A stretch of 64,000 bases of DNA from Chondrilla cf. caribensis. Taxonomy: Eukaryota; Porifera; Demospongiae; Chondrillida; Chondrillidae. The position numbers were made by a program, and so were the translations under genes. The number at the start of each line of letters is the position of its first letter. Positions within the stretch are counted from its first letter, which is position 1. Positions 13,150 to 57,000 of the stretch are shown here, in pieces. The stretch lies in the NCBI GenBank assembly GCA_964020155.1, contig OZ026546.1:3657900-3721899 (forward strand), written 5' to 3'. Under the pieces are notes generated by a model. That model was not told where the DNA came from, made no database searches, and saw only the letters and a list, made by a program, of their open reading frames with translations.

Positions 13150-17125
<3,976 letters not shown>

Positions 17126-17134
17126 GTGCATATA
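17126..17134. repeat. Target-site duplication, left
   Basis: GTGCATATA immediately before the left terminal inverted repeat. The identical 9-mer follows the right one at 29130-29138. Confidence 0.85.
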
Positions 17135-17241
17135 ACTAGCCATTAGGGACAGGGATTTAGCATTGAACTGTTGCGTAATAAGCAAATGGCATCTGCTGTT
17201 GCGTAATAAGCAAATGGCCTCTATATGTGACTATATACGTA
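17135..17241 (+). repeat. Left TIR of the MULE (with 28-bp internal duplication)
   Basis: Matches the complement of 29051-29129 over 79 bp, from ACTAGCCATT to ATATACGTA. It contains an extra tandem copy of 28 bp (TGTTGCGTAATAAGCAAATG at 17170 and again at 17198), so it is 107 bp long. Past ATATACGTA the satellite begins at once. Confidence 0.88.
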
Positions 17242-20045
17242 GGCCCTGTGGATGTAGTAGATGTAGTAGACCCTGTAGATGTAGTAGATGTAGTAGATGT
17301 AGTAGACTATGTAGATGTAGTAGATGTAGTAGGCCCTGTAGATGCAGTAGATGTAGTAGACCCTGTAGATGTAGTAGATGTAGTAGACTATGTAGACCAT
17401 GTAGATATAGTAGATGTAGTAGACCATGTAGATGTAGTAGATGTAGTAGACTATGTAGATGTAGTAGATGTAGTAGACCCTGTAGATGTAGTAGATGTAG
17501 TAGACCCTGTAGATGTAGTAGATGTAGTAGACGCTGTAGATGCAGTATATGTAGTAGTCCCTGTAGATGTAGTAGACCCTGTAGATGCAGTATATGTAGT
17601 AGGCCCTGTAGATGTAGTAGATGTAGTAGACCATGTAGATGTAGTAGATGTAGTAGACATTGTAGATGTAGTAGATGTAGTAGACTATGTAGATGTAGTA
17701 GATGTAGTAGACTATGTAGACCATGTAGATATAGTAGTTGTAGTAGACCATGTAGATGTAGTAGATGTAGTAGACTATGTAGATGTAGTAGATGTAGTAG
17801 ACCATGTAGATGTAGTAGATGTAGTAGACTATGTAGATGTAGTAGATGTAGTAGACCCTGTAGATGTAGTAGATGTAGTAGACCCTGTAGATGTAGTAGA
17901 TGTAGTAGACCCTGTAGATGTAGTAGATGTAGTAGACCGTGTAGATGTAGTAGATGTAGTAGACCATGTAGATGTAGTAGATGTAGTAGACTATGTAGAT
18001 GTAGTAGATGTAGTAGACTATGTAGATGTAGTAGATGTAGTAGACTATGTAGACCATGTAGATATAGTAGTTGTAGTAGACCATGTAGATGTAGTAGATG
18101 TAGTAGACTATGTAGATGTAGTAGATGTAGTAGACCCTGTAGATGTAGTAGACCCTGTAGATGTAGTAGATGTAGTAGACCCTGTAGATGTAGTAGACTA
18201 TGTAGATGTAGTAGATGTAGTAGACCCTGTAGATGAAGTAGATGTAGTAGACGCTGTAGATGTAGTAGATGTAGTAGACCCTGTAGATGTAGTAGACTAT
18301 GTAGATGTAGTAGATGTAGTAGACTATGTAGATGTAGTAGATGTAGTAGACTATGTAGATGCAGTAGATGTAGTAGACCCTGTAGATGTAGTAGATGTAG
18401 TAGACTATGTAGATGTAGTAGATGTAGTAGACCCTGTAGATGTAGTAGATGTAGTAGACCCTGTAGATGTAGTAGATGTAGTAGACCCTGTAGATGTAGT
18501 AGACTATGTAGATGTAGTAGATGTAGTAGACTATGTAGATGCAGTAGATGTAGTAGACTATGTAGATGTAGTAGATGTAGTAGACTATGTAGATGTAGTA
18601 GATGTAGTAGACCCTGTAGATGTAGTAGACTATGTAGATGTAGTAGATGTAGTAGACCCTGTAGATGTAGTAGACTATGTAGATGTAGTAGATGTAGTAG
18701 ACTATGTAGATGCAGTAGATGTAGTAGACCCTGTAGATGTAGTAGATGTAGTAGACCCTGTAGATGTAGTATATGTAGTAGACCCTGTAGATGTAGTAGA
18801 CTATGTAGATGTAGTAGATGTAGTAGACTATGTAGATGCAGTAGATGTAGTAGACCCTGTAGATGTAGTAGATGTAGTAGACCCTGTAGATGTAGTATAT
18901 GTAGTAGTCCCTGTAGATGTAGTAGACCCTGTAGATGCAGTATATGTAGTAGGCCCTGTAGATGTAGTAGATGTAGTAGACCATGTAGATGTAGTAGATG
19001 TAGTAGACATTGTAGATGTAGTAGATGTAGTAGACTATGTAGATGTAGTAGATGTAGTAGACTATGTAGACCATGTAGATATAGTAGTTGTAGTAGACCA
19101 TGTAGATGTAGTAGATGTAGTAGACTATGTAGATGTAGTAGATGTAGTAGACCCTGTAGATGTAGTAGACCCTGTAGATGTAGTAGATGTAGTAGACCCT
19201 GTAGATGTAGTAGACTATGTAGATGTAGTAGATGTAGTAGACCCTGTAGATGAAGTAGATGTAGTAGACCCTGTAGATGTAGTAGATGTAGTAGACCCTG
19301 TAGATGTAGTAGACTATGTAGATGTAGTAGATGTAGTAGACTATGTAGATGTAGTAGATGTAGTAGACTATGTAGATGCAGTAGATGTAGTAGACCCTGT
19401 AGATGTAGTAGATGTAGTAGACTATGTAGATGTAGTAGATGTAGTAGACCCTGTAGATGTAGTAGATGTAGTAGACCCTGTAGATGTAGTAGACTATGTA
19501 GATGTAGTAGATGTAGTAGACTATGTAGATGCAGTAGATGTAGTAGACTATGTAGATGTAGTAGATGTAGTAGACTATGTAGATGTAGTAGATGTAGTAG
19601 ACCCTGTAGATGTAGTAGACTATGTAGATGTAGTAGATGTAGTAGACCCTGTAGATGTAGTAGACTATGTAGATGTAGTAGATGTAGTAGACCCTGTAGA
19701 TGTAGTAGACTATGTAGATGTAGTAGATGTAGTAGACTATGTAGATGCAGTAGATGTAGTAGACCCTGTAGATGTAGTAGATGTAGTAGACCCTGTAGAT
19801 GTAGTATATGTAGTAGACCCTGTAGATGTAGTAGACTATGTAGATGCAGTAGATGTAGTAGACCCTGTAGATGCAGTAGATGTAGTAGACCCTGTAGATG
19901 TAGTAGATGTAGTAGACTATGTAGATGTAGTAGACCCTGTAGATGTAGTAGATGTAGTAGACTATGTAGATATAGTAGACCATGTTGATGTAGTAGATGT
20001 AGTAGACATTGTAGATGTAGTAGACCATGTAGATGTAGTAGATGC
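17242..20045 (+). repeat. Left subterminal satellite array, 27/18-bp units
   Basis: Units have the form GTAGATGTAGTAGATGTAGT then AGAC plus a variable trinucleotide (CCT, TAT, CAT, GCT, ATT or CGT): 27 bp, or 18 bp when one 9-bp GATGTAGTA step is missing. Higher-order repeats are visible: the block around 17550-17780 (GCAGTATATGTAGTAGGCCC) recurs at about 18895-19135. Because every unit is a multiple of 3 without stops, very long ORFs exist on both strands. They are consequences of the repeat, not genes. Confidence 0.9.
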
Positions 20046-20393
20046 ACTGTATAATCTTATACTATATTATATTGTTATGCATATATGTATTTTACTACAT
20101 TTATAATATGATATATATGCATGCAGATAGTAAGACATATAATAATTTGTGCACTTGGCCTGTATAATAAGTATTCTAATTATACATATATATTATTATA
20201 TATAATATACATACTTATATTTATACATACCAAATTCCAATTACAGGCATTTTATAATTACATATACGTAAGTGAAGTTCAGAATCAATAATTATTATGT
20301 ATTGTATACAATAGATAATAGTAAATGATATTGCATACAATGATATATATAATATGAATGAAATAGTCTGTGTATGCTATTAATATTATGTAA

Positions 20394-23232
20394 TTAGTTT
20401 TGGATTTGCTCTCCAAAACAAAGTGTTGTGGAAAAACTGGGAGCAGTCGAATTGCTCCGCATAGCCCGGAGCTTTTTCGTTGGGGATGATCCTGTGACTG
20501 CATGAGGTAAGTGGCAAATATATACATGAAGACTATATAAGTTCACATAAAATCACGTGTGACATACCTTTTGCTGGGCGTTTATTCCTGCTTTTGCTGG
20601 ACTTTCTGGGCACCTTTTCATTTTGTTTCATCGGCTGGGGATTGTCTGTTACATGTAGATCTGGCTCAATTGTTTCGTTCCCAGATGTCTGGGGATTGTC
20701 TGTAACAGGTCGACCTGGCTGAATTGTTTCGTTCCCAGTTGTCTGTTGTTCATCATCCTCAGCTTGCTTTGATGGAATGTGCTCAGTTGAACAAACTGAG
20801 TATCAAGTAAGTACAAATACATGAAATACATAAGTTGAGTGCTAACTATTGTCCTGGTCCTATATACTAGGGTAGCCTGGGTATAGCACTAACCTGCTTT
20901 CAGTGCCTCTGCCAGTTCCGAACTTATGCATGACTCATGCATCACAATACACCTCTTTTTGGTGGTGCACTCTGGGGGTCCAGTTCCAATCTGAATGATG
21001 AAGAGATCATTGCTAAGCTATGCCATTGTAAATGTACGTATATAGTAAATCAATAATACCATAATAATTCTGTGTATTATACTTAGGTAAGTGGTGTAAC
21101 ACATGGATATGTCTATTCATACATACATGCATACACACATACATACATATGTACATACATAATACATACTTAAATACATACATACAAGCATACATGCATA
21201 CATGTATATGTATATATGCAACTGCGTAGCTATCAAAGTATTATCTATATACCTTGGAGATGGGAGGAGTCTGAATCATTGCTTTAGCCGAAAGAAACAA
21301 ACGTGCAGTGCCTTTGAAGCACAGGGGGTTTTTCTTCTGTGGGTCAGCAGCCTTCGTAAACATAGCTGCAACAGTGGGGTCCACTGGCAGTTCACTAAAA
21401 ACAAACATAAACTGTTTCTTTTTTTCCTGGTATTTTACCCTCTGCAAAATTTCAGTCCTTGACTTGTCAGCTGTCCAAAGTAGCACTTCTTGTGCATACT
21501 TCTCCATATGGCTCTTGTCAGAGACAGAATATGAAGAAGTATCATCATGTTCGAGCTGAAAATCTCGGACAGTTTCTGAAATCCTTGTCGTGAAAAAATC
21601 ATCTATTTCCTCTTTGCATGGCAACTGTAGGTCCTCCACAATCTGTGATTTATTAGTCATTGCATACATAAATACATAAACATAATAATTCACAACATAA
21701 CAATATCATACACATACATACATACATACACATTTAACCACGTATACGATTTCGTACATGTATGCAGTATGATACCAATCTAATATAATACTGGTAATAT
21801 CACAAGTGTCAGGAAACTATAATATATGTGTGTGGAGTTCAATCAAAATATGTTATTTGCATACCTTATCACAGAACCACTTTAGTGCACCATACTGTGG
21901 TACAACTCGGTGGAATACCTGGGCAGGAAATATACGTTCCAGTTCAGGGATGATATTTTCATCCATCTCTCTCATTCCTTTTTCCTGGAATAATGTTCCT
22001 AAACTGACAAGGTAGGAGATCCCTGCTGACACTTGACGCTGGCATTGTTTTAGTCTATAATGACTAGTAATTTTGGTTGTTAAGGAAGGTGCCAGAAATG
22101 GTATTAATAAGCACCTAGTGGCACTCCTGCATGTTTAGATATAGAAAATATACCACAGTAAGCAGATAAGACCATGCTGTTTTATGCATAAAGCATATCA
22201 TTAGTACATACATGCATAATTATATTACACATACTCTATAAGTACTAATATTCATTTTTATCCCATATATGACAGTCAGCTGAATGGAATGACTAACACA
22301 CCTTGCAGATGTATTAAGGGGAAAATTGCTTGTGACAATTATCCCAGCTCTTGGTATCTGCATGCCATGGGCCAGTGTATGCACAAATTCTCCATTGTAC
22401 AGCTGAACTACTATTTCTTCCGTATCTTTCTTGGAACTGGGGTCATCAAATCCCACTGGGATACTTGAATTAGACAGTGTAGCACGTATGGAAGCATTTG
22501 TCACTTTGCTGTATATGTGTTGCGGTGCACCAAGGGCAGCCATCACGCACCTCAGTGCCGTTGTCTTGCCAGTGCCTGGTGGACCATACAAAACTGGCAC
22601 GGGGAAGTTGGAAAGCACATCCCTGATTGTTTCGTAATGGAGTGTGAGAGCCCCTGCTGCCAAAGCTACCAATGCTGCACAGCTATTGTGATTCATGCAG
22701 TCCATTAGGGACATAATCATATGTTTCAATGGTTCAACTGCCAGAGGCTTAGCCACAAAGAATGGCTCACTGTGGATGCCTTGTACAGTTTCGGCAACCA
22801 GATGCTGGATCCAAATGTAGTTCGTCTCGGCTATGGTAATCTCTTCCCCTCTGGCATTTATGTATGTCTCCCCATCCAGTACCCATGTGCCATCAATTTG
22901 TCGTCCAGGATACAGAGCTGGCTTCTTTACTGGACAGGAGTCAGCATTTTTATACTGAAAGAATTCGGTAACTTCCTTTTCAGTGAAGTTACACAATAGA
23001 TTACCCTGCTTGTAAGAGCGGTTGAGCTCCTTAATGAATTGATTCTTCACATGGAGGCCATCATTCGTCACATAACATAACCTGATAGCAAAGTATGTAC
23101 TAAGTACTACATGTATTGGTAGGTAAATGCAAAGCAAGCACACACATGCATACTTCACAAGCATACATACTGTATATAATATTAACACACATGTACACAA
23201 TGCGCACACACACATGCACACGCACACACACA

Positions 23233-23297
<65 letters not shown>

Positions 23298-23828
23298 CAT
23301 ACTGCACACATACTGGTCACATAATAACTACATCTGTACAAACACGCATAGCACATACTGTACATGTATATATATACACACACACACAACTTCATACCTC
23401 TTTTGGTTGGTGTCCGATGAAGGACAAACTTCTAGGAGGTAGCCACTTAAGTGTGGCCTACTCTCACAGATTACATTGTTTTTCACCTTGAAAGTAAAGT
23501 TTGATACTGCTCTGTACTTTCCCTTCACCAGCACTCCAAATGTACACCTCTCTGTGTCTTCATGGAATCGAGTATCTACAAAGTTTTGAAAGATAAAGCA
23601 TTATGTACCTTGTTCTGCTTTGAGAGTCATGTATGTACATAATAATAGTGATTCACTGGAAATAATGATACACAACTGATTTCACTATAATATATTCTCA
23701 CCAGCATCTGAAACAATGTCCTTCTGTGATTTAGAAGAAATGGAGGAGTCATCTTTGGAAAGGGGTTCTACAAAGCTGTCTTCAGTCTGAACTTCTGGAA
23801 TTACAGTATGAGCATCTTTGTCATCCAT
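20394..23828 (-). CDS. Transposon-borne P-loop AAA-type ATPase, 8 exons, 721 aa, intact
   Basis: Minus-strand exons 23828-23702, 23575-23398, 23081-22302, 22126-21865, 21642-21253, 20990-20894, 20795-20568 and 20497-20394 join with matching phases (1,2,2,0,0,1,1) into exactly 722 codons. Start MDDKDAHTVIP. Walker A GPPGTGKTT at aa 268-276, Walker B-like VGFDD at 311-315, sensor-1-like TSN at 352-354, then a conserved-looking SATRCLLIPF. The C-terminus has two copies of a roughly 17-residue motif (TTGNETIQPGRPVTDNPQ / TSGNETIEPDLHVTDNPQ) and a basic KSSKSRNKRPAK-type stretch, perhaps for DNA binding or nuclear import. The ATPase core resembles DUF927/SF3-type helicase-like ATPases, but I cannot fix the family. 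It lies inside the transposon, divergent from the transposase, so a helper role is inferred; a captured gene is the alternative. Confidence 0.8.
23195..23300. repeat. (AC)n in intron 2 of the ATPase gene
   Basis: About 70 bp of pure AC with degenerate flanks, lying between ATPase exons 2 and 3. Confidence 0.9.
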
Positions 23829-24366
23829 TGCAAATGGTAGGGTTTCAAATCACAACTTACCAAGAGCAGCTGCATTTTATAGGCTATTCAGTGAATCTCT
23901 GGTGAAGCCAACCATATGCAAGGTGCAAGTGAGTACTCCATATATGGGAGTACCATGCATGTGTGGGTGCACCATATATAGAAACACATAATGGAGTTGC
24001 AGACGATTGATAACACTATGTACCTCCCATGCAAACCAGCAGGTACAGCTCAGGAGGTGCATATGCACTTCAACCGTTTCGGGCTCATTTACCCTCATCA
24101 GTGCAACATACCAAAAACTGATAATATGTACGTACATTGGAAGGGATGCTACATACATTGTGTACATGTGTACATTGAATCAGACACTACATACACTGTG
24201 TACATTGAATCAGATTCTACATACACAGTACATATCAACAAGACTCACATGGATACCATTGCCATTTAACAGGCAAAGGATATAACAAGGCCTTTGTATT
24301 GATGATCATTAACAAATCTTCATTTGGACTCCTCATCAGTCTGTGGTCAGAGGCAAACAATGACAG

Positions 24367-24450
24367 AAGTCCAACCACCCATTTGTACCTACAACAAAGG
24401 AGATGAAGCTTTCTTTGTTGTAGGTAAGGTACAAATGGGTGGTTGGACTT
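24367..24450. repeat. Near-perfect hairpin inside the transposon
   Basis: AAGTCCAACCACCCATTTGT then ACCTACAACAAAG pairs with CTTTGTTGTAGGTAaggTACAAATGGGTGGTTGGACTT; the loop is about 12 nt. A small foldback element or a regulatory structure. Confidence 0.7.
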
Positions 24451-24824
24451 GAGTCTTGTTCATATGTTCACTCCATAACTGAAACTACACACAAGCAACA
24501 CATAAACATACACTCACATAACAAAACATAGGCACATAAGATTTGCATACAAATATACATATGAACACAGTCATGTCCCTAACTACATAACAATACATAC
24601 ACACTGTGTCATAAATACCTGAAGACTAGTTGTCCTTGCATGGTAACAATGAAGTAATTAGAAATGTATGTATGTATTGTATGTATTGTATGTACGTACA
24701 TATGTATGTGTGTGTGTACTATGTACGCATATATTAATGTATGTATGTATGTATTATGTACATACAGTACATAAAGAACACTATGTACATACAATACAAA
24801 GAAAGCACACCCTACAGACACACA

Positions 24825-24934
24825 CACACAAACACACACACATAAACACACACATGTATACACACACACATGCACACACACATAAACACACACATGTATA
24901 CACACACACATGCACACACACACACACACACACA

Positions 24935-24990
<56 letters not shown>
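24825..24990. repeat. (AC)n-rich microsatellite
   Basis: AC tracts interrupted by ATGTATACACACACATGCAC units, then pure AC to 24990. Confidence 0.9.
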
Positions 24991-24993
<3 letters not shown>

Positions 24994-25141
24994 TCCTTCC
25001 AATCGTCACAAAATGCTGTAGCCAGGCAACACAAACTTTATAATTTATGCACACCCATCAATGTTATGGTCAGGTATATATAAAAGGGGTGAAGTGATAG
25101 ACCTATTGTAAGAGTATAGAGAAAAGTATTTCCAGAAAGTG

Positions 25142-26180
25142 ATGAGCAGCAAGGTTCCATGCAAGTTTTGCCCAAAGACTTTTGTCCATGCATCTAGTCT
25201 CAGTAGACATATAGCAAAGTTCCATTCAGAAGTGAAATCTGGTCCCGGAAAAGTCCATTGCCTGGAATGTACTAAAATGTAAGGATACAGCACTATATAT
25301 CACTGTAGGTCCTCTAAATTGTAAATACATACCATGATTATATCTGTATGATTATTTCATTGCAGATGCTCTAGTGTGAAAGGGCTAATCAACCATCTGA
25401 AAAAGAAACATGATATCATTTATCTCATTTTGAATAAAGATTTTGGCAGTTTTGAATTGTTTCTTAAATGGAAGGATGATGTGGAAAAATCAACTTTAAC
25501 CAACTATGTCTTAAAAAGTGGCCGAACAAAGTCAGGCAATGTAGAACACTTCAACTATTACTGCAACAGATCTGGTATGTACTCAACACGTGGTAAAGGT
25601 AAAAGGCAGTTGAAGACACAGGGTTCCTCTAAAATAGGGCATTACTGTACAGCGTACATGTCAGTAAGAAAAAACAACAAAGACGGCAGGGTGTGTGTGG
25701 AGTATTGTGACGGACACTACAGGCATCGGAAACAGTTAGCACATTTACAAATACCTGAGAATGTACGTATTAAAATAGCTGACATGCTCAGTAGGGGTAG
25801 CACTGAAAGTAGCATACTGGATGCAATCAGGGATGATGTAAGCGAAGGACTGCAACGTCAACATCTCATCACAAAAATGGACATACACAACATAAAGCGG
25901 CAGTATAACATCCATGGTATAGAAAAGCACAATAATGATCTCACAAGTGTTAAAATGTGGGTGAACGAACTAGGTGAATTGAAAGAGAATCCAATTGTGA
26001 TTTTTAAAGCCCAGGGAGATCATCAACCACTTGATATGGATGATGTGGGAGTCAATGACTTTGTGCTTGGATTTCAAACAGAATTCCAATGTGATATGAT
26101 GAAAAAATATGGAGAAAATGCAATATGTATGGATTCCACTCATGGAACCAATTCCTACAATTTCTTCCTTGTGACTATAG
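25142..26180 (+). pseudogene. MULE transposase, N-terminal part, truncated by satellite
   Basis: Exon 25142-25278 and exon 25366 onward (donor GTAAGG, acceptor TTGCAG, phase 2) join in frame. Two C2H2 fingers: CKFCPKTFVHASSLSRHIAKFH and CLECTKICSSVKGLINHLKKKH. Then a basic region, a Cys/His segment around YCDGHYRHRKQLAHLQIP, and a MULE-type block FVLGFQTEFQ...MMKKYGENAICMDSTHGTN, where the Asp of CMDSTHGTN is the usual first catalytic acidic residue. Immediately after SYNFFLVTIV the frame enters the 27/18-bp satellite at about 26181. The remaining catalytic residues and C-terminus are missing, and the open frame continues only as Leu/His-rich repeat. About 320 residues of genuine transposase remain. 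I regard it as a broken gene whose product could still bind DNA through its fingers. Confidence 0.78.
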
Positions 26181-29005
26181 TCTATCTACATAGTCTTCTA
26201 GATCTACTACATCTACTACATCTACAGGGTCTACTACATCTACTACATCTACATAGTCTTCTAGATCTACTACATCTACATAGTCTACTACATCTACTAC
26301 ATCTACAGGGTCTACTACATCTACTACATCTACATAGTCTTCTAGATCTACTACATCTACATAGTCTACTACATCTACAGGGTCTACTACATCTACTACA
26401 TCTACATAGTCTACTACATCTACTACATCTACAGGGTCTACTACATCTACTACATCTACATAGTCTACTACATCTACTACATCTACAGGGTCTACTACAT
26501 CTACTACATCTACAATGTCTACTACATCTACATGGTCTACTACATCTACAATGTCTACTACATCTACTACATCTACATGGTCTACTACATCTACTACATC
26601 TACAGGGTCTACTACATCTACTACATCTACATAGTCTACTACATCTACTACATCTACATGCCATTGGTCTACTACATCTACTACATCTACATGGTCTACT
26701 ACATCTACAGGGTCTACTACATCTACTACATCTACATAGTCTACTACATCTACTACATCTACATAGTCTACTACATCTACTACATCTACATGGTCTACAT
26801 GGTCTACTACATCTACGGGGTCTACAACATTTACTACATCTACTATATCTACAGGGTCTACTACATCTACTACATCTACATAGTCTACTACATCTACTAC
26901 ATCTACATGGTCTACTACATCTACTACATCTACAGGGTCTACTACATCTACATCTACATAGTCTACTACATCTACTACATCTACAGGGTCTACTACATCT
27001 ACTACATCTACAGGGTCTACTACATCTACAGGGTCTACTACATCTACAGGGTCTACTACATCTACTACATCTACATAGTCTACTACATCTACTACATCTA
27101 CATAGTCTACTACATCTACTACATCTACATAGTCTACTACATCTACTACATCTACATGGTCTACTACATCTACTACATCTACATAGTCTACTACATCTAC
27201 TACATCTACATGGTCTACTACATCTACGGGGTCTACAACATTTACTACATCTACTATATCTACAGGGTCTACTACATCTACTACATCTACTATATCTACA
27301 GGGTCTACTACATCTACTACATCTACTATGTCTACTACATCTACTACATCTACATAGTCTTCTAGATCTACTACATCTACTACATCTACAGGGTCTACTA
27401 CATCTACTACATCTACATAGTCTTCTAGATCTACTACATCTACATAGTCTACTACATCTACTACATCTACAGGGTCTACTACATCTACTACATCTACATA
27501 GTCTTCTAGATCTACTACATCTACATAGTCTACTACATCTACAGGGTCTACTACATCTACTACATCTACTATGTCTACTACATCTACTACATCTACATAG
27601 TCTACTACATCTACTACATCTACATGGTCTACTACATCTACTACATCTACACGGTCTACTACATCTACTACATCTACAGGGTCTACTACATCTACTACAT
27701 CTACATAGTCTACTACATCTACTACATCTACATGGTCTACTACATCTACTACATCTACACGGTCTACTACATCTACTACATCTACAGGGTCTACTACATC
27801 TACTACATCTACAGGGTCTACTACATCTACTATATCTACAGGGTCTACTACATCTACTACATCAACATGGACTACGACATCTACATAGTCTACTACATCT
27901 ACTACATCTACATGGTCTACTACATCTACTACATCTACAGGGTCTACTACATCTACTACATCTACAGGGTCTACTACATCTACTACATCTACTACATCTA
28001 CTACATCTACAGGGTCTACTACATCTACTACATCTACTACATCTACTACATCTACTACATCTACAGGGTCTACTACATCTACTACATCTACTACATCTAC
28101 TACATCTACAGGGTCTACTACATCTACATAGTCTACTACATCTACTACATCTACAGGGTCTACTACATCTACTGCATCTACAGGGTCTACTACATCTACT
28201 GCATCTACATAGTCTACTACATCTACAGGGTCTACTACATATACTACATCTACAGGGTCTACTACATCTACTACATCTACAGGGTCTACTACATCTACTG
28301 CATCTACATAGTCTACTACATCTACTACATCTACATAGTCTACTACATCTACAGGGTCTACTACATCTACTACATCTACATAGTCTACTACATCTACAGG
28401 GTCTACTACATCTACTACATCTACTATGTCTACTACATCTACTACATCTACATAGTCTACTACATCTACTACATCTACATGGTCTACTACATCTACTACA
28501 TCTACACGGTCTACTACATCTACTACATCTACAGGGTCTACTACATCTACTACATCTACATAGTCTACTACATCTACTACATCTACATGGTCTACTACAT
28601 CTACTACATCTACACAGTCTACTACATCTACTACATCTACAGGGTCTACTACATCTACTACATCTACAGGGTCTACTACATCTACTATATCTACAGGGTC
28701 TACTACATCTACTACATCAACATGGACTACGACATCTACATAGTCTACTACATCTACTACATCTACATGGTCTACTACATCTACTACATCTACATGGTCT
28801 ACTACATCTACTACATCTACAGGGTCTACTACATCTACTACATCTACTACATCTACTACATCTACTACATCTACAGGGTCTACTACATCTACTACATCTA
28901 CTACATCTACTACATCTACTACATCTACAGGGTCTACTACATCTACTACATCTACTACATCTACTACATCTACTACATCTACTACATCTACAGAATCTAC
29001 TACAT
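26181..29005 (-). repeat. Right subterminal satellite array, inverted relative to the left
   Basis: Units CTACTACATCTACTACATCT with ACAGGGT, ACATAGT or ACATGGT are the complement of the left array. The length is almost the same (2.8 kb). Local expansions of pure CTACTACAT occur at 27980-28110 and 28840-28990. Together with the TIRs the two arrays form a long discontinuous inverted repeat around a 6.1-kb core. Confidence 0.9.
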
Positions 29006-29050
29006 CATTCTACTACATGTTTCTCACTATTGCTTAATAACTGCTGCTAT

Positions 29051-29129
29051 TACGTATATAGTCACATATAGAGGCCATTTGCTTATTACGCAACAGTTCA
29101 ATGCTAAATCCCTGTCCCTAATGGCTAGT
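29051..29129 (-). repeat. Right TIR of the MULE, 79 bp
   Basis: TACGTATATAGTCACATATA to GGCTAGT is the exact complement of the left TIR apart from the left copy's 28-bp insertion. A 45-bp unique stretch (29006-29050) separates it from the satellite. Confidence 0.88.
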
Positions 29130-29138
29130 GTGCATATA
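29130..29138. repeat. Target-site duplication, right
   Basis: GTGCATATA, identical to 17126-17134. Confidence 0.85.
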
Positions 29139-30310
29139 GCACTGCGTGATGCTTGTCTGTGTGTGCATGATGCTTGTGTGTATGTGCATGATGCTTGTGT
29201 GTATGTGCATGATAATTGTGAGTATGTACATGATGCTTGTGTGTATTTACATGATTCTTATGTGTATGTACATGATGCTTGTAAGTATGTGCAAGATGTT
29301 GCAAATTTGAGCATAATGCTTGTGCGTATGTGCATGATGCTTATATGTTTCTTTCTTACATTAATTAACATCATGTCATTATTATATTTGTCATGACATG
29401 GTACCACATGTACTTCATTAGAGATCTCTCATTGTCTTCATCCAGATGGCCAGCATGTACTGTTACTTCTATCTTATAGGTTTCCGTTTTGCTGTGAGAC
29501 CTTCAGTGTAGTAAGCAAGGCAGCAAGTTTCCTTGGTTGCCATTGTAGCCATGGTACCCTTCTTGTGTGTGTATGTGCATGATACTTGTGTGTGTGAAAA
29601 ATGCTTACAAGTTTGCGTCTTATACTCAGATAGGTCAAAATGACATCACAATCATAGTTTGAAATGACATCACTACATGTACAGGATTGTATAAACGTGA
29701 TGTGTTGAGTGTCAAGTGTTGACTCAACCAAATTAGCCCATCCATTTGTCTGTATGGACAATGACACTCGACCAATGGAACCACGAGAAAAAATTAAGAT
29801 ACCAACTGCAGCTAACTGTGCGCACATAGTTTCAGTTAAGTACAGCAGAAGCCAATTAAAGACCACTTCAGAAAGCAATTCTAACTAGGTTGCACATATT
29901 AGTGTTTGTGCATATGTTTATAATGCTTGTGTGTTGTGTATTATGCTTGCAACTATGTGTATGATGCTTGTGTATGTCTAAGTAATGGTTGTATGCATGT
30001 GTATGATGGTTCTGTACATGTGCTTGTGCATGTGCTGTGTTTAGTAGTGTATTTGTTTGTGAGGTTACTTTCTTGCATCATTGAACATAATGGATTACTT
30101 CATTTGTTATGCTATAGTACAATTGCCACCGTAAGTAGTCCTCTTCAGTTCTTTCATTGTCTATGTCCAGATGGTCAGGCTGTACTGATTACTTCAACTT
30201 TTTGGCTTCCATTTTGTTGTGTGACCTTTAGTGCAGTGAGCAGGACATCATGCCCACTTGGTTGCCATGGTAGCAATGGTAGCCTCCTTGTGTGAATATG
30301 TACAAGATGC
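29139..30310. repeat. Degenerate tandem array, about 1-kb units (right part)
   Basis: This continues the array of 13150-17125. It has the ATGATGCTTGTGTGTATGTG minisatellite, the TTTCCGTTTTGCTGTGAGAC and TTCCATTTTGTTGTGTGACC blocks (29485, 30205), the ACAATGACACTCGACCAATG block (29757) and the TGCTGTGTTTAGTAGTG block (30032). No gene seen. Confidence 0.75.
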
Positions 30311-43017: not shown

Positions 43018-43430
43018 GTGAGTATAATCTATAGCATCTTTTTTATAAACTATGATCTTACTAATACTTCACCGCGGGGCAGCCTAGTTTCATCCATCAG
43101 TTTCTCCCCAAGAATTATTTTTGTGCGTGTACCTAATATACACATAAGCCCCGTTTACACAACATAATGCCCATGATACATGTCTATAAAGAGAGAAATG
43201 TAAGATTGTTTTTAATTGACAATGTATGTTATGGAGGCAACATGCAACATGTAGTTCATGCCAATGTCCTCCCAGTTCTCACTCATGCTATTGCTATGCT
43301 ATTATGTCATGCAAGGTCCATGAGTTTATGTATTGATGGTCAGTCCCAAGCCCATGACACACTAGACATTAAAATTTTGCTTGTCTGGCAGTATTGTTTA
43401 CACAGGGGCTGTACTTTCCTGATGATTGCA

Positions 43431-43845
43431 CCAACAGGTACAAGGTGTCGCATTGCTCAGATATACTCTTATTGTAGATAAGGTATACTATACCTGGTCC
43501 AGCAATGTGATACCTTGTACCAACAGGTACAAGGTGTCACATTGCTCAGATATACTGTTATTGTAGATAAGGTATACTAAACCAGCAATGTGACACCTTG
43601 TACCAACAGATACAAGGTGTCGCATTGCTCAGATATACTGTTATTGTAGATAAGGTATACTAAACCAGCAATGTGATACCTTGTACCAACAGGTACAAGG
43701 TGTCGCATTGCTCAGATATACTGTTATTGTAGATAAGGTATACTATACCAGCAATGTGACACCTTGTACCAACAGGTACAAGGTGCCGCATTGCTCAGAT
43801 ATACCATTATTGTAGATAAGGTATAATAGTATTATACCAGCTAGT
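43431..43845. repeat. Tandem palindromic repeat, 5 units of about 83 bp
   Basis: Each unit reads ACAAGGTGTCGCATTGCT, then CAGATATACTGTTATTGTAG, then AGCAATGTGACACCTTGT. The ACAAGGTGTC...GACACCTTGT arms make each unit a hairpin, with the linker ACCAACAGGT. Located in the first intron of gene C and absent from B. Confidence 0.85.
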
Positions 43846-54018: not shown

Positions 54019-57000
54019 GACACAAACATTCAATCAAATGACATAATTTTTTCCCAAATATTACAGTGAACATTCTTAAAGTTACATCTATGATATAGTA
54101 CATTTGTTGTGTGTTTTCAATCGCATTTCAGTTTCCATATTATGAAGCCCCAGAAAAGTTTCAAGTTCTGTATACATGTATGAATGAAAGTGAACCAGTT
54201 ATGTCTAACATAACACACAACAATGAGGCTGTTTTGTCTACTGGTGATACTTTCAATTTCACTGACAGTAAACAGTGTGCTATCACTGTCAGTGCCTGTT
54301 TGAAGGGAACGTTTTGTCAGTGGTCAGTTAAAAGTGATCCTTTTACCTTCACAGGTTGGTGAATGCATGAGAGGAAATACCTATATACACATGTACATTC
54401 ACATACGTATATGCACCAAATAAGCACACACAAACGTACATGCACACAAACACATGCACAATTGTGCACATAAACCCCATACCCACACACATACACACAC
54501 ATATACGTACGTACATACATCCAGACCCACACATATTATATGTATATATACCAATATAAACATTGAAACAGTACATACATATGTACACATGTCCATAAAC
54601 ATTACATACTGTAATTTCAATACTGCTGTCATGTTTGATGCTAATGCATAAATGTACTATGTGTTCCAATGCTGATATGTACATAGTAAGTGAACTACCA
54701 ACTAAATCTGAACACAACAGATCTGAAGACACGCCCACCACATGCCCACCAGCCACATCCACAGGTAAAGCAATGCACATGAATAATATGCATACAAACG
54801 TCACAGGAGGAAACTGCTGTTTTTGAGTATGAAACACCTTGGAATCACTGTTGAAAGACTCGACCTATTAATTTCTATGAACAATGCATTGGAACATTCA
54901 ACAAGACTTCAATGGAATTTCATCCTTAGTGAAACTGGTACTTTCCTCTTGTATGTATATGCAGTATCCTATTATACTGTATACAATGTATCTGCAGTAC
55001 ATTATGGAGATCACACAACAATGCATCCTGTAGGATTATATTACATTGCATCTGCCCATAATAACCACATACAGTATGTACAGTATATATTATATGCATT
55101 AGTAACAAGTTAAGGCTGCCTATGTGCGTATAGTGGAATATGTATGTACACATATAATAGTAACATACGTTCATACTGTATACAGTGGGACCTCTCTATT
55201 ACAAACCTCTGAGAAGTGGAAACCTCTATAATAAGGACACCATTCTGTGTCCCAGTGTAGTACTGTAGTGTATCAAGTGGCCTCTGAATTGAGGAAACCT
55301 CTGTAAAAAGGACTAAAATCAATGTCCAAAAGTGTCCATAATAGGAAGGTTCCACTGAATTAGTATATATATATGTACATATATATCTACGTATGCGTAT
55401 GTATATTCCTACATACGTACTCTATGTATATTGTGTACAGTACTGTTATTTGAATCCCTTTCAATTTCATTCCGTGCCATTCATATGTGAAGTCTTATTT
55501 GGTTTGTGTGGATATTCACTTAAATTAAAATGTAAATGTGCTAATTAATATGTGAGTGCTCACACATACCTACAGTACATGTACATGCGAGGAGTGGATG
55601 CAATTGTACTCGCATCAAGGATAGTAATAACAGAGTACATATACTGTATGTATGTATTATACATGTGTACGTACTCACTATAGGTACGTATATGTAAGTA
55701 TGTATGTATCTATGTACATATGTACAGTACATACCTTATAGCGGGAAAGTTTCGTGGACTAAGAGTTTTGCGAATTTTGTGAAGAATCTGGTATTTGTGA
55801 AAGTTTTATTCATGAACACCCAATGACGTAATCGTCTGTCAATCAATTAACGTGATGGATCACGAAACTTTTTATGGGAATTCGTGAAATTGATCATGAG
55901 TGATTCACGAAAGTTTTGTCTCGCAAAACTCTAAATACAGTATAGGTAATATTATGTATGCATGTATATTTCCATGTACATATTATGTATGTCTACTCAC
56001 TAGGGGATAGTGGTCCAATTGGACTGTACAAAGCTGCAACAATTGCCCTGGCAACAGCATTGGGACTATTATTGACAGTAGTGGTTGTAGTGAGTATAGT
56101 GTTAATCGTGAGAGAAAGGAGAAAACAAAGGATGAAACTGGACCAATGTGAGCCATATGAACTCAAGTTTACGCATCACGTGTAATTGCTATTTGTAATC
56201 AATTCAAACTATATACACTCAAACCTCCTCACAACATTACTTTTTACAAGGACAGTCTTTTCATACAATAACATGTTTTGTGGATACGGATATATTCACA
56301 TATGTACACAGTAATTGAACTGTGTATGATCTACTGAGATACGATAAAGATATAATTCTGTTACGACAGTTATGTAACTGGTTATAGTGACACAAAAAGT
56401 GAGGAGTTAGAGGTGATGTTATAAAGAAGCTTAACTGTATATCACAATATACATATATTTCGTATGTACGTATGTAGATCCTTTATCATGAGAACTGTAT
56501 TCGACATAATGTCGTGTACTGTATTCGATATAATGTCATGAGTACTGTATTCGATATAATGCCATGAGTACTGTATTCGATATAATGTCATGAGTACTGT
56601 ATTCGACATAATGTCATGAGTACTGTATTCGACATAATGCCATGAGTACTGTATTCGACATAATGTCATGAGTACTGCATTCGACATAATGTCATGAGTA
56701 CTGTATTGGACATAATGTCATGAGTACCTTATTCACTTCACTATTATTCACTGTTCACTTTAGTATTCACACATTTGGGTTACAGTAATCCTGCCGCATG
56801 CAGTTATGTAAAGTTCTTCGTGTTCCATTCATTATGCACAGGCATCAGGGATATGACAACGTTGAACATCAGTGACCGTGACACACTCACCAACCGACAA
56901 CAGGAATTCAACAGATCCTGTATAAATACTGCTGACCTAGTGGAGGACGCAGGCTACATGGTGATGCAGAATGCAGTACCTGTGAAACAGTGTAAGAGGG

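Follow-up and report, generated by a model that had tools for sequence, protein, structure and literature searches.

Known transposase partners and accessory genes

In bacteria, some DDE transposases work with a dedicated ATPase partner. The transposases of Mu, Tn7 and IS21 use AAA+ partners (PMC11208146, in its available parts), and the ends of these elements each carry several transposase-binding repeats (PMC10122671, as excerpted). Among MULEs, second genes are already known: maize MuDR carries mudrB, a yeast element mutB and Arabidopsis elements vanB/vanC, all of them accessory genes located between the terminal repeats, and the accessible portion of PMC6446971 mentions no ATPase among them. 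Rehavkus, which is MULE-like, has minisatellites at its ends (PMC6446971, PMC10218199, both in excerpt) and a PHD finger in its transposase. Accessory genes common to transposon superfamilies are known as well (PMC12730594, in part), as illustrated by the TET/JBP dioxygenases of fungal transposons.

The present locus comes from the sponge Chondrilla cf. caribensis. The window, that is the whole stretch of DNA analysed, comprises 64,000 nucleotides (GCA_964020155.1, contig OZ026546.1, positions 3,657,900 to 3,721,899). It contains a MULE that carries, next to a truncated transposase gene, a complete gene for a putative P-loop ATPase. As with IstA/IstB of IS21, MuA/MuB of Mu and TnsB/TnsC of Tn7, a transposase gene and an ATPase gene lie inside the same ends, which contain repeated units. 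In contrast to these three systems, the element is eukaryotic and intron-bearing, arrays of the family range from about 0.1 to 2.8 kb, no sequence relation between the ATPases was detected, and the mechanism is so far a proposed one. The parallel with TnsC, IstB and MuB drawn in the earlier note serves as a working hypothesis; relatedness in sequence was not found. The ATPase gene resembles mudrB, mutB and vanB/vanC in being a MULE accessory gene between terminal repeats, and differs from them in that its family also accompanies KDZ elements. The minisatellites in inverted ends that mark Rehavkus are present. However, no PHD finger was found in the window element, whose transposase is truncated: tblastn with the PHD finger of the KDZ elements gave no match in 17135-29129. 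Compared with TET/JBP, the enzyme and the host group are different, and here the two superfamilies occur in one genome. In a partial literature search that did not extend to Repbase, no report of an ATPase partner in MULE or KDZ elements was found, and an ATPase family common to both is, within that search, apparently unreported.

The MULE carrying the ATPase gene

The MULE occupies 17135-29129 (11,995 bp) and has matching ends and a perfect 9-bp target duplication, GTGCATATA. Target duplications of MULEs are 8-11 bp long. The unique outer ends (ACTAGCCATTAGGGACAGGGATTTAGCATTGAACTGTTGC...) face outwards at 17135 and 29129, with no difference over at least 40 bp; the left one has an extra internal duplication of 28 bp at 17168-17222. 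Inside them are two inverted minisatellite arms of about 2.8 kb each, with a 27-bp unit and clear 9- and 18-bp harmonics (Table 1). The element looks young because the 9-bp duplication is perfect and the outer ends are identical.

The transposase frame is open from 25142, contains one intron placed by inspection, and enters the right arm at about 26175, after FFLVTI. Since the frame runs into the arm, most of the catalytic domain is missing, and no complete DDE domain is present; beyond the right arm, only the terminal repeat follows. What is left is of MULE type, as indicated by matches to ZSWIM1-3 RNase H-like (6.2e-4) and FAR1 (0.0032), both below the curated cut-off, and by the motif CMDSTHGTN recognized by eye, together with the terminal inverted repeats and the 9-bp duplication. 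The window copy would be mobile only by means of a transposase from elsewhere, because its own catalytic part is absent. The earlier note had described an intact ATPase gene within a MULE, divergent from a dead transposase; the ends and target duplication bear out the first part of this description, and the truncation by the right arm bears out the second.

The first 34 bases of the MULE end, with up to 3 mismatches, recur at only two other sites in the 137-Mb genome, both partial, which leaves the window element as the only complete copy of the assembly. At one site, on C5, the end is followed by the same minisatellite and then by unrelated DNA; at the other, on C15, the match is limited to 40 bp. 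The latter (C15:2937627-2937666) is a solitary end, identical to that of the window and continuing into unrelated sequence. A further transposon nested around the ATPase gene was considered and rejected, the spanning inverted pairs being simple repeats and a 29-bp hairpin at 24362-24455 (among the longest 25 of 69).

Table 1. Features of the window element, related loci in the genome and their repeat arrays. Positions without a contig name refer to the window.
Feature	Position	Strand	Remarks
Target-site duplication, left copy (GTGCATATA)	17126..17134	.	
Left terminal inverted repeat, unique outer part (ACTAGCCATTAGGGACAGGG...)	17135..17239	+	
Left minisatellite arm	17257..20044	.	27-bp unit, 9- and 18-bp harmonics
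ATPase exon 8	20394..20497	-	stop codon ends at 20394
ATPase exon 7	20568..20795	-	in-frame 54-bp (18-residue) tandem duplication; basic tail begins
ATPase exon 6	20894..20990	-	
ATPase exon 5	21253..21642	-	junction with exon 4 crossed by P0008
ATPase exon 4	21865..22126	-	ATRCLLIPF block; junction with exon 3 crossed by P0008
ATPase exon 3	22302..23081	-	part of N-terminal region, Walker A, DDPSS, TSN
ATPase exon 2	23398..23575	-	N-terminal region common to KDZ-borne homologue
ATPase exon 1	23702..23828	-	ATG at 23828
MULE transposase exon 1	25142..25278	+	zinc-finger-like (by eye); splice site by inspection
MULE transposase exon 2	25366..26175	+	FAR1-like, first part of RNase H fold (CMDSTHGTN)
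Right minisatellite arm	26176..29006	.	inverted relative to left arm; 26203-28982 by repeat finder
Right terminal inverted repeat, unique outer part	29025..29129	-	inner limit approximate
Target-site duplication, right copy (GTGCATATA)	29130..29138	.	
Family locus	C5:3553839-3554282		KDZ-type
Family locus	C6:2319430-2319828		KDZ-type
Family locus	C1:2326343-2326741		KDZ-type
Family locus	C24:1844000-1844179		KDZ-type, decayed
Window array	both arms		
C5 arrays	both sides		18-bp, inverted orientation; at or near presumed element ends
C6 array	right end		9 bp, 126 copies
C1 array			9 bp, 16 copies
C24 array			9 bp, 13 copies; at or near a presumed element end

An intact ATPase gene

The ATPase gene lies on the minus strand (23828-20394). 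Its eight exons have compatible phases, all seven introns are GT-AG, and the coding length of 2166 nt corresponds to 721 residues and a stop, that is exactly 722 codons. The protein contains a Walker A motif (GPPGTGKTT), VGFDDPSS, IVTSN and a basic C-terminus. All the elements of the gene listed in the earlier note (compatible exons, codon count, Walker A, VGFDD, TSN and basic C-terminus) were thus recovered, and the gene is intact.

Besides the window copy, six relatives of exon 3 were retrieved from metagenome and genome contigs, with 73-81% identity in local alignment over 31-100% of the exon; one of them, the fragment P0009, drops to 58% in a further alignment. Because of these six relatives, the frame is not a chance opening. 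One of the six, the metagenomic P0008, is an uninterrupted protein of 299 residues that begins shortly ahead of Walker A, covers exon 4 and ends within exon 5. It passes the exon 3/exon 4 and exon 4/exon 5 junctions at the predicted residues, its contig being either a transcript or an intron-less copy. In a separate contig of 304,126 bases, P0013 (102 residues) is nearly identical to part of window exon 3, with one internal difference and divergence at the last residue; it probably represents the same species or a close one, sequenced for another assembly.

It may be asked whether part of the gene model is in error, or whether the window copy is dead. The splices are predicted, and four of the seven junctions (exons 1/2, 5/6, 6/7 and 7/8) are without outside support. 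Nevertheless, the junctions 2/3, 3/4 and 4/5 have such support, since P0008 crosses two of them and three introns recur in the KDZ-borne homologue, and all 722 codons are open. We regard either possibility as very improbable.

The same ATPase family accompanies KDZ transposons

Across the whole genome, in searches that score best candidates only, window exon 3 used as a query retrieved four loci and the C5 homologue five. All five family loci lie in or adjoin DDE transposons, namely this MULE and four KDZ (Zisupton-like) loci, so a second transposase superfamily in the same genome is accompanied by the same ATPase family. The earlier note had reasoned that its proposal would fail if homologues existed only as ordinary host genes; within the same searches, no ordinary host-gene copy was found. 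It had also asked whether homologues always lie between the same terminal repeats and beside the transposase; all five loci are in or next to transposons, four of them of KDZ type and one a MULE.

The KDZ assignment concerns the four homologous loci and not the window. At C5, the transposase is accompanied by a cysteine cluster (CxC5, 33.7 bits, above the cut-off of 26.9), the KDZ domain itself scoring 23.0 bits, below its cut-off of 26.6 (7.6e-5); homologues of this transposase are found at C6 and C24. At C6 and C1, two separate insertions each have imperfect terminal repeats and a duplication of 8 bp, AAGACATT at C6 and ATCTTCCT at C1, which is the length given for Zisupton (PMC12730594, as excerpted). 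Target duplications are therefore seen at three of the five family loci, counting that of the MULE.

At C5, C6 and C24, the KDZ transposase is directly upstream of the ATPase on the same strand, and these are also all three KDZ loci recovered with the C5 transposase exon as a query. A PHD finger follows downstream at all four KDZ-type loci, the C24 copy having a stop. Thus, KDZ elements share the ATPase family with the window and differ from it in organization: the window has a MULE transposase, a divergent gene order and a 9-bp duplication. No KDZ transposase was found at the C1 copy, and the transposase therefore seems to have been lost there too. In the transposase-deficient copies of both superfamilies, the C1 element and the window MULE, the ATPase frame is still open in the stretches examined.

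The pairing of a MULE with the ATPase is seen in a single element. The two other loci with MULE transposases (C7 and C1:7.77 Mb, 28-29% identical) yielded no ATPase within about 10 kb with four queries, the only two matches having E values of 0.07-0.09 over 13 and 35 residues.

Homology and shared introns of the two versions

The C5 protein was modelled by eye as 575 residues in eight exons with GT-AG introns, its C-terminal end being left open. It aligns with the window protein over 455 residues with 21% identity (BLASTP E 1.6e-23, single comparison), and a global profile comparison gave a probability of 99.4% over 506 columns. The alignment spans the N-terminal region (LSGYLLEV in the window, LKGFILEV in C5), Walker A, DDPS and LIPF.

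In both genes, three introns coincide in position and phase. The intron between window exons 2 and 3 corresponds to that between C5 exons 1 and 2 (phase 2), and the intron between window exons 4 and 5 to that between C5 exons 6 and 7 (phase 0). The intron between window exons 3 and 4 matches that between C5 exons 5 and 6 (phase 2); both interrupt a codon for arginine located ten residues ahead of the LIPF phenylalanine, as counted from the LIPF block, the alignment having a four-residue gap beside the junction. Comparison of the sequences thus shows the MULE and KDZ versions to be homologous over most of their modelled length, with introns in common. From this we infer that both would descend from one intron-bearing gene.

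Repeat arrays at or near the element ends

At each of the five ATPase loci, a repeat array with a 9-, 18- or 27-bp period lies at or near an end (Table 1). At the two MULE loci lacking the ATPase, no such array is present among the repeats listed; the comparison is a small one, of five loci with two.

Wider family and classification

A search with a profile of six sequences retrieved 31 proteins: ten MULE-type, 15 KDZ-type and six of a third clade, whose closest match in the genome, at 34% over 212 residues (E 8.2e-39), is the window protein. In a tree of 25 sequences, with 12 fragmentary relatives left out and assigned to clades by eye, the KDZ type has a support of 1.00, the separation of the MULE type from all others 0.95 and the third clade 0.83. 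In 19 aligned sequences, the first G, the GK and the DDP are invariant, and the T after GK is nearly so.

The label 'AAA-type' given in the earlier note fits the motifs, as Walker A and an acidic Walker B-like motif are present, and otherwise remains nominal. For the window protein, no curated AAA profile scores above its cut-off (PF00004, 21.1 versus 21.2 bits; AAA_22, 22.6 versus 27), and its other Pfam matches are also under cut-off and all sit around Walker A. The Pfam families suggested earlier as a check fared alike: besides AAA, the SF3 profile PF00910 gave 19.0 bits against 21.5 (E 0.002), and DUF927 at best 14.1 bits in the rows with bits shown, against 22.6 (E 0.03-0.14); the DUF927 profile has no match in the whole genome. 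For TnsC, IstB and MuB, no Pfam match at E <= 1 appears for the window protein, P0008 and five third-clade proteins, weak matches possibly having been filtered. The profile phrog_296, 'DNA transposition protein', reaches 0.014 at best, in four of six members. No profile of Pfam, NCBIfam or PHROG matched over the length of the protein, and the highest-ranking of the weak matches concern profiles of phage primase/helicase and of clamp loaders, one of the family comparisons covering the best 25 of 36 families with cut-offs not given. Structure prediction, also proposed earlier, gave two models with mean pLDDT 39 and 36, unusable for the fold, a lid or an arginine finger. Because no curated profile exceeds its cut-off, membership in AAA+, SF3 or the TnsC/IstB/MuB group is unproven. 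The family is best explained as a P-loop ATPase of a so far undescribed family, in which the N-terminal region is likewise conserved.

A bacterial or phage origin of the proteins was also considered. A full-length search among 7,995 scored candidates gave one weak match (E 0.56), and the 31 proteins of the profile search resemble, by eye, eukaryotic exon fragments; this origin was rejected. At least eight IMG/VR loci match 24-66 residues around Walker A.

Signs of selection

The earlier note took the intactness of the gene as a hint of function or recent activity. For the window copy, intactness says little because the element looks young; the argument fares better with the conservation in relatives, nucleotide tests being available for the KDZ version and protein conservation for the MULE version. 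Six coding stretches (five of the ATPase and one of the PHD finger, 1542 nt, part of the gene) were compared between the copies at C6 and C1 and contain 7 differences, 4 synonymous and 3 nonsynonymous (pN/pS 0.21, Fisher p 0.044). The same stretches differ at 7 of 1542 positions versus 55 of 4950 in the rest of the shared block (p 0.023), a count that omits the last, badly aligned bin; with it, the figure is 76 of 5066 (p 0.0006). These seven substitutions, with the PHD stretch included, provide modest evidence that the coding stretches of the KDZ version have changed less than their surroundings.

Possible role of the ATPase

Taken together, these data suggest a helper ATPase kept and shared by eukaryotic transposons. 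We hold, with slightly better than even confidence, that an element-encoded P-loop ATPase of an undescribed family, borne by MULE and KDZ elements, works with the transposase. In such a mechanism, ATP would be bound by the protein, as its Walker A motif suggests. By analogy, the ATP-bound form would assemble on DNA, at the repeat-rich element ends and/or at the target, and would there license or position the transposase in the manner of IstB, TnsC and MuB. A more specific version, in which one module exchanged between MULE and KDZ would read iteron-like, 9-bp-based end arrays and control a DDE transposase, having arisen independently of TnsC, IstB and MuB, is proposed tentatively and with appreciable doubt. 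Against a partnership with the transposase stand the single ATPase-bearing MULE and the lack of a profile link to IstB, TnsC or MuB over the length of the protein.

The leading alternative, on account of where the weak profile matches point, is a replication helicase that would load at the terminal arrays and unwind DNA, the elements replicating or repairing themselves during movement. P0008 matches phrog_1139, 'DNA primase', over residues 12-150 (6.5e-6), the PF00910 and DUF927 values point in the same direction, and an 'Active helicase' (5dgk) aligns from Walker A to the acidic motif with E 0.4; the order of the A, DD and [ST]N motifs is reminiscent of SF3. However, none of the matches spans the protein, those of Pfam are all under the curated cut-off, no gene for a polymerase or primase was noticed in the elements, and the 8- and 9-bp duplications are consistent with ordinary strand transfer by a transposase, which makes a helicase unlikely in our judgement. 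MULEs are also known to take up host genes (PMC6446971, PMC6431247, both in part), and the spliceosomal introns would suit a captured host gene carried as a passenger, Pack-MULE style. Such a capture is improbable: no copy away from transposons was found among the best candidates genome-wide, the gene is complete rather than a fragment and its coding exons are conserved, and members of the family are also found with KDZ elements, three of these loci having a KDZ transposase and one lacking it. We give equally little credit to a factor acting against silencing or for chromatin access and passed between superfamilies like TET/JBP. Genes of the latter occur in 11 fungal transposon lineages, KDZ included, and have moved between them (PMC12730594, available sections), the plant MULE gene vanC is anti-silencing (PMC6446971, available sections), and the KDZ elements described here encode a PHD finger; yet a P-loop ATPase weakly resembling DNA-replication proteins would be an unusual choice, and Pfam revealed no chromatin domain in it.

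If the ATPase does work with the transposase, eukaryotes would have a system with possibly ATP-controlled target choice or immunity, in which one accessory gene of a family without a Pfam model would serve two unrelated transposases. The repeat arrays would then be concrete candidates for its binding sites.

Sequences around the element

The MULE is flanked at 13582-15896 and 29143-30022 by several patches of a 21-bp minisatellite (TGCATGATGCTTGTGTGTATG and similar units), and the target duplication GTGCATATA is similar to part of its unit. The MULE may have entered near such an array. The window also contains a perfect (TG)n tract, 585 bp long, at 14527-15111 and, outside the MULE, other tandem arrays at 43426-43825 (83-bp units) and 56486-56734 (26-bp units).
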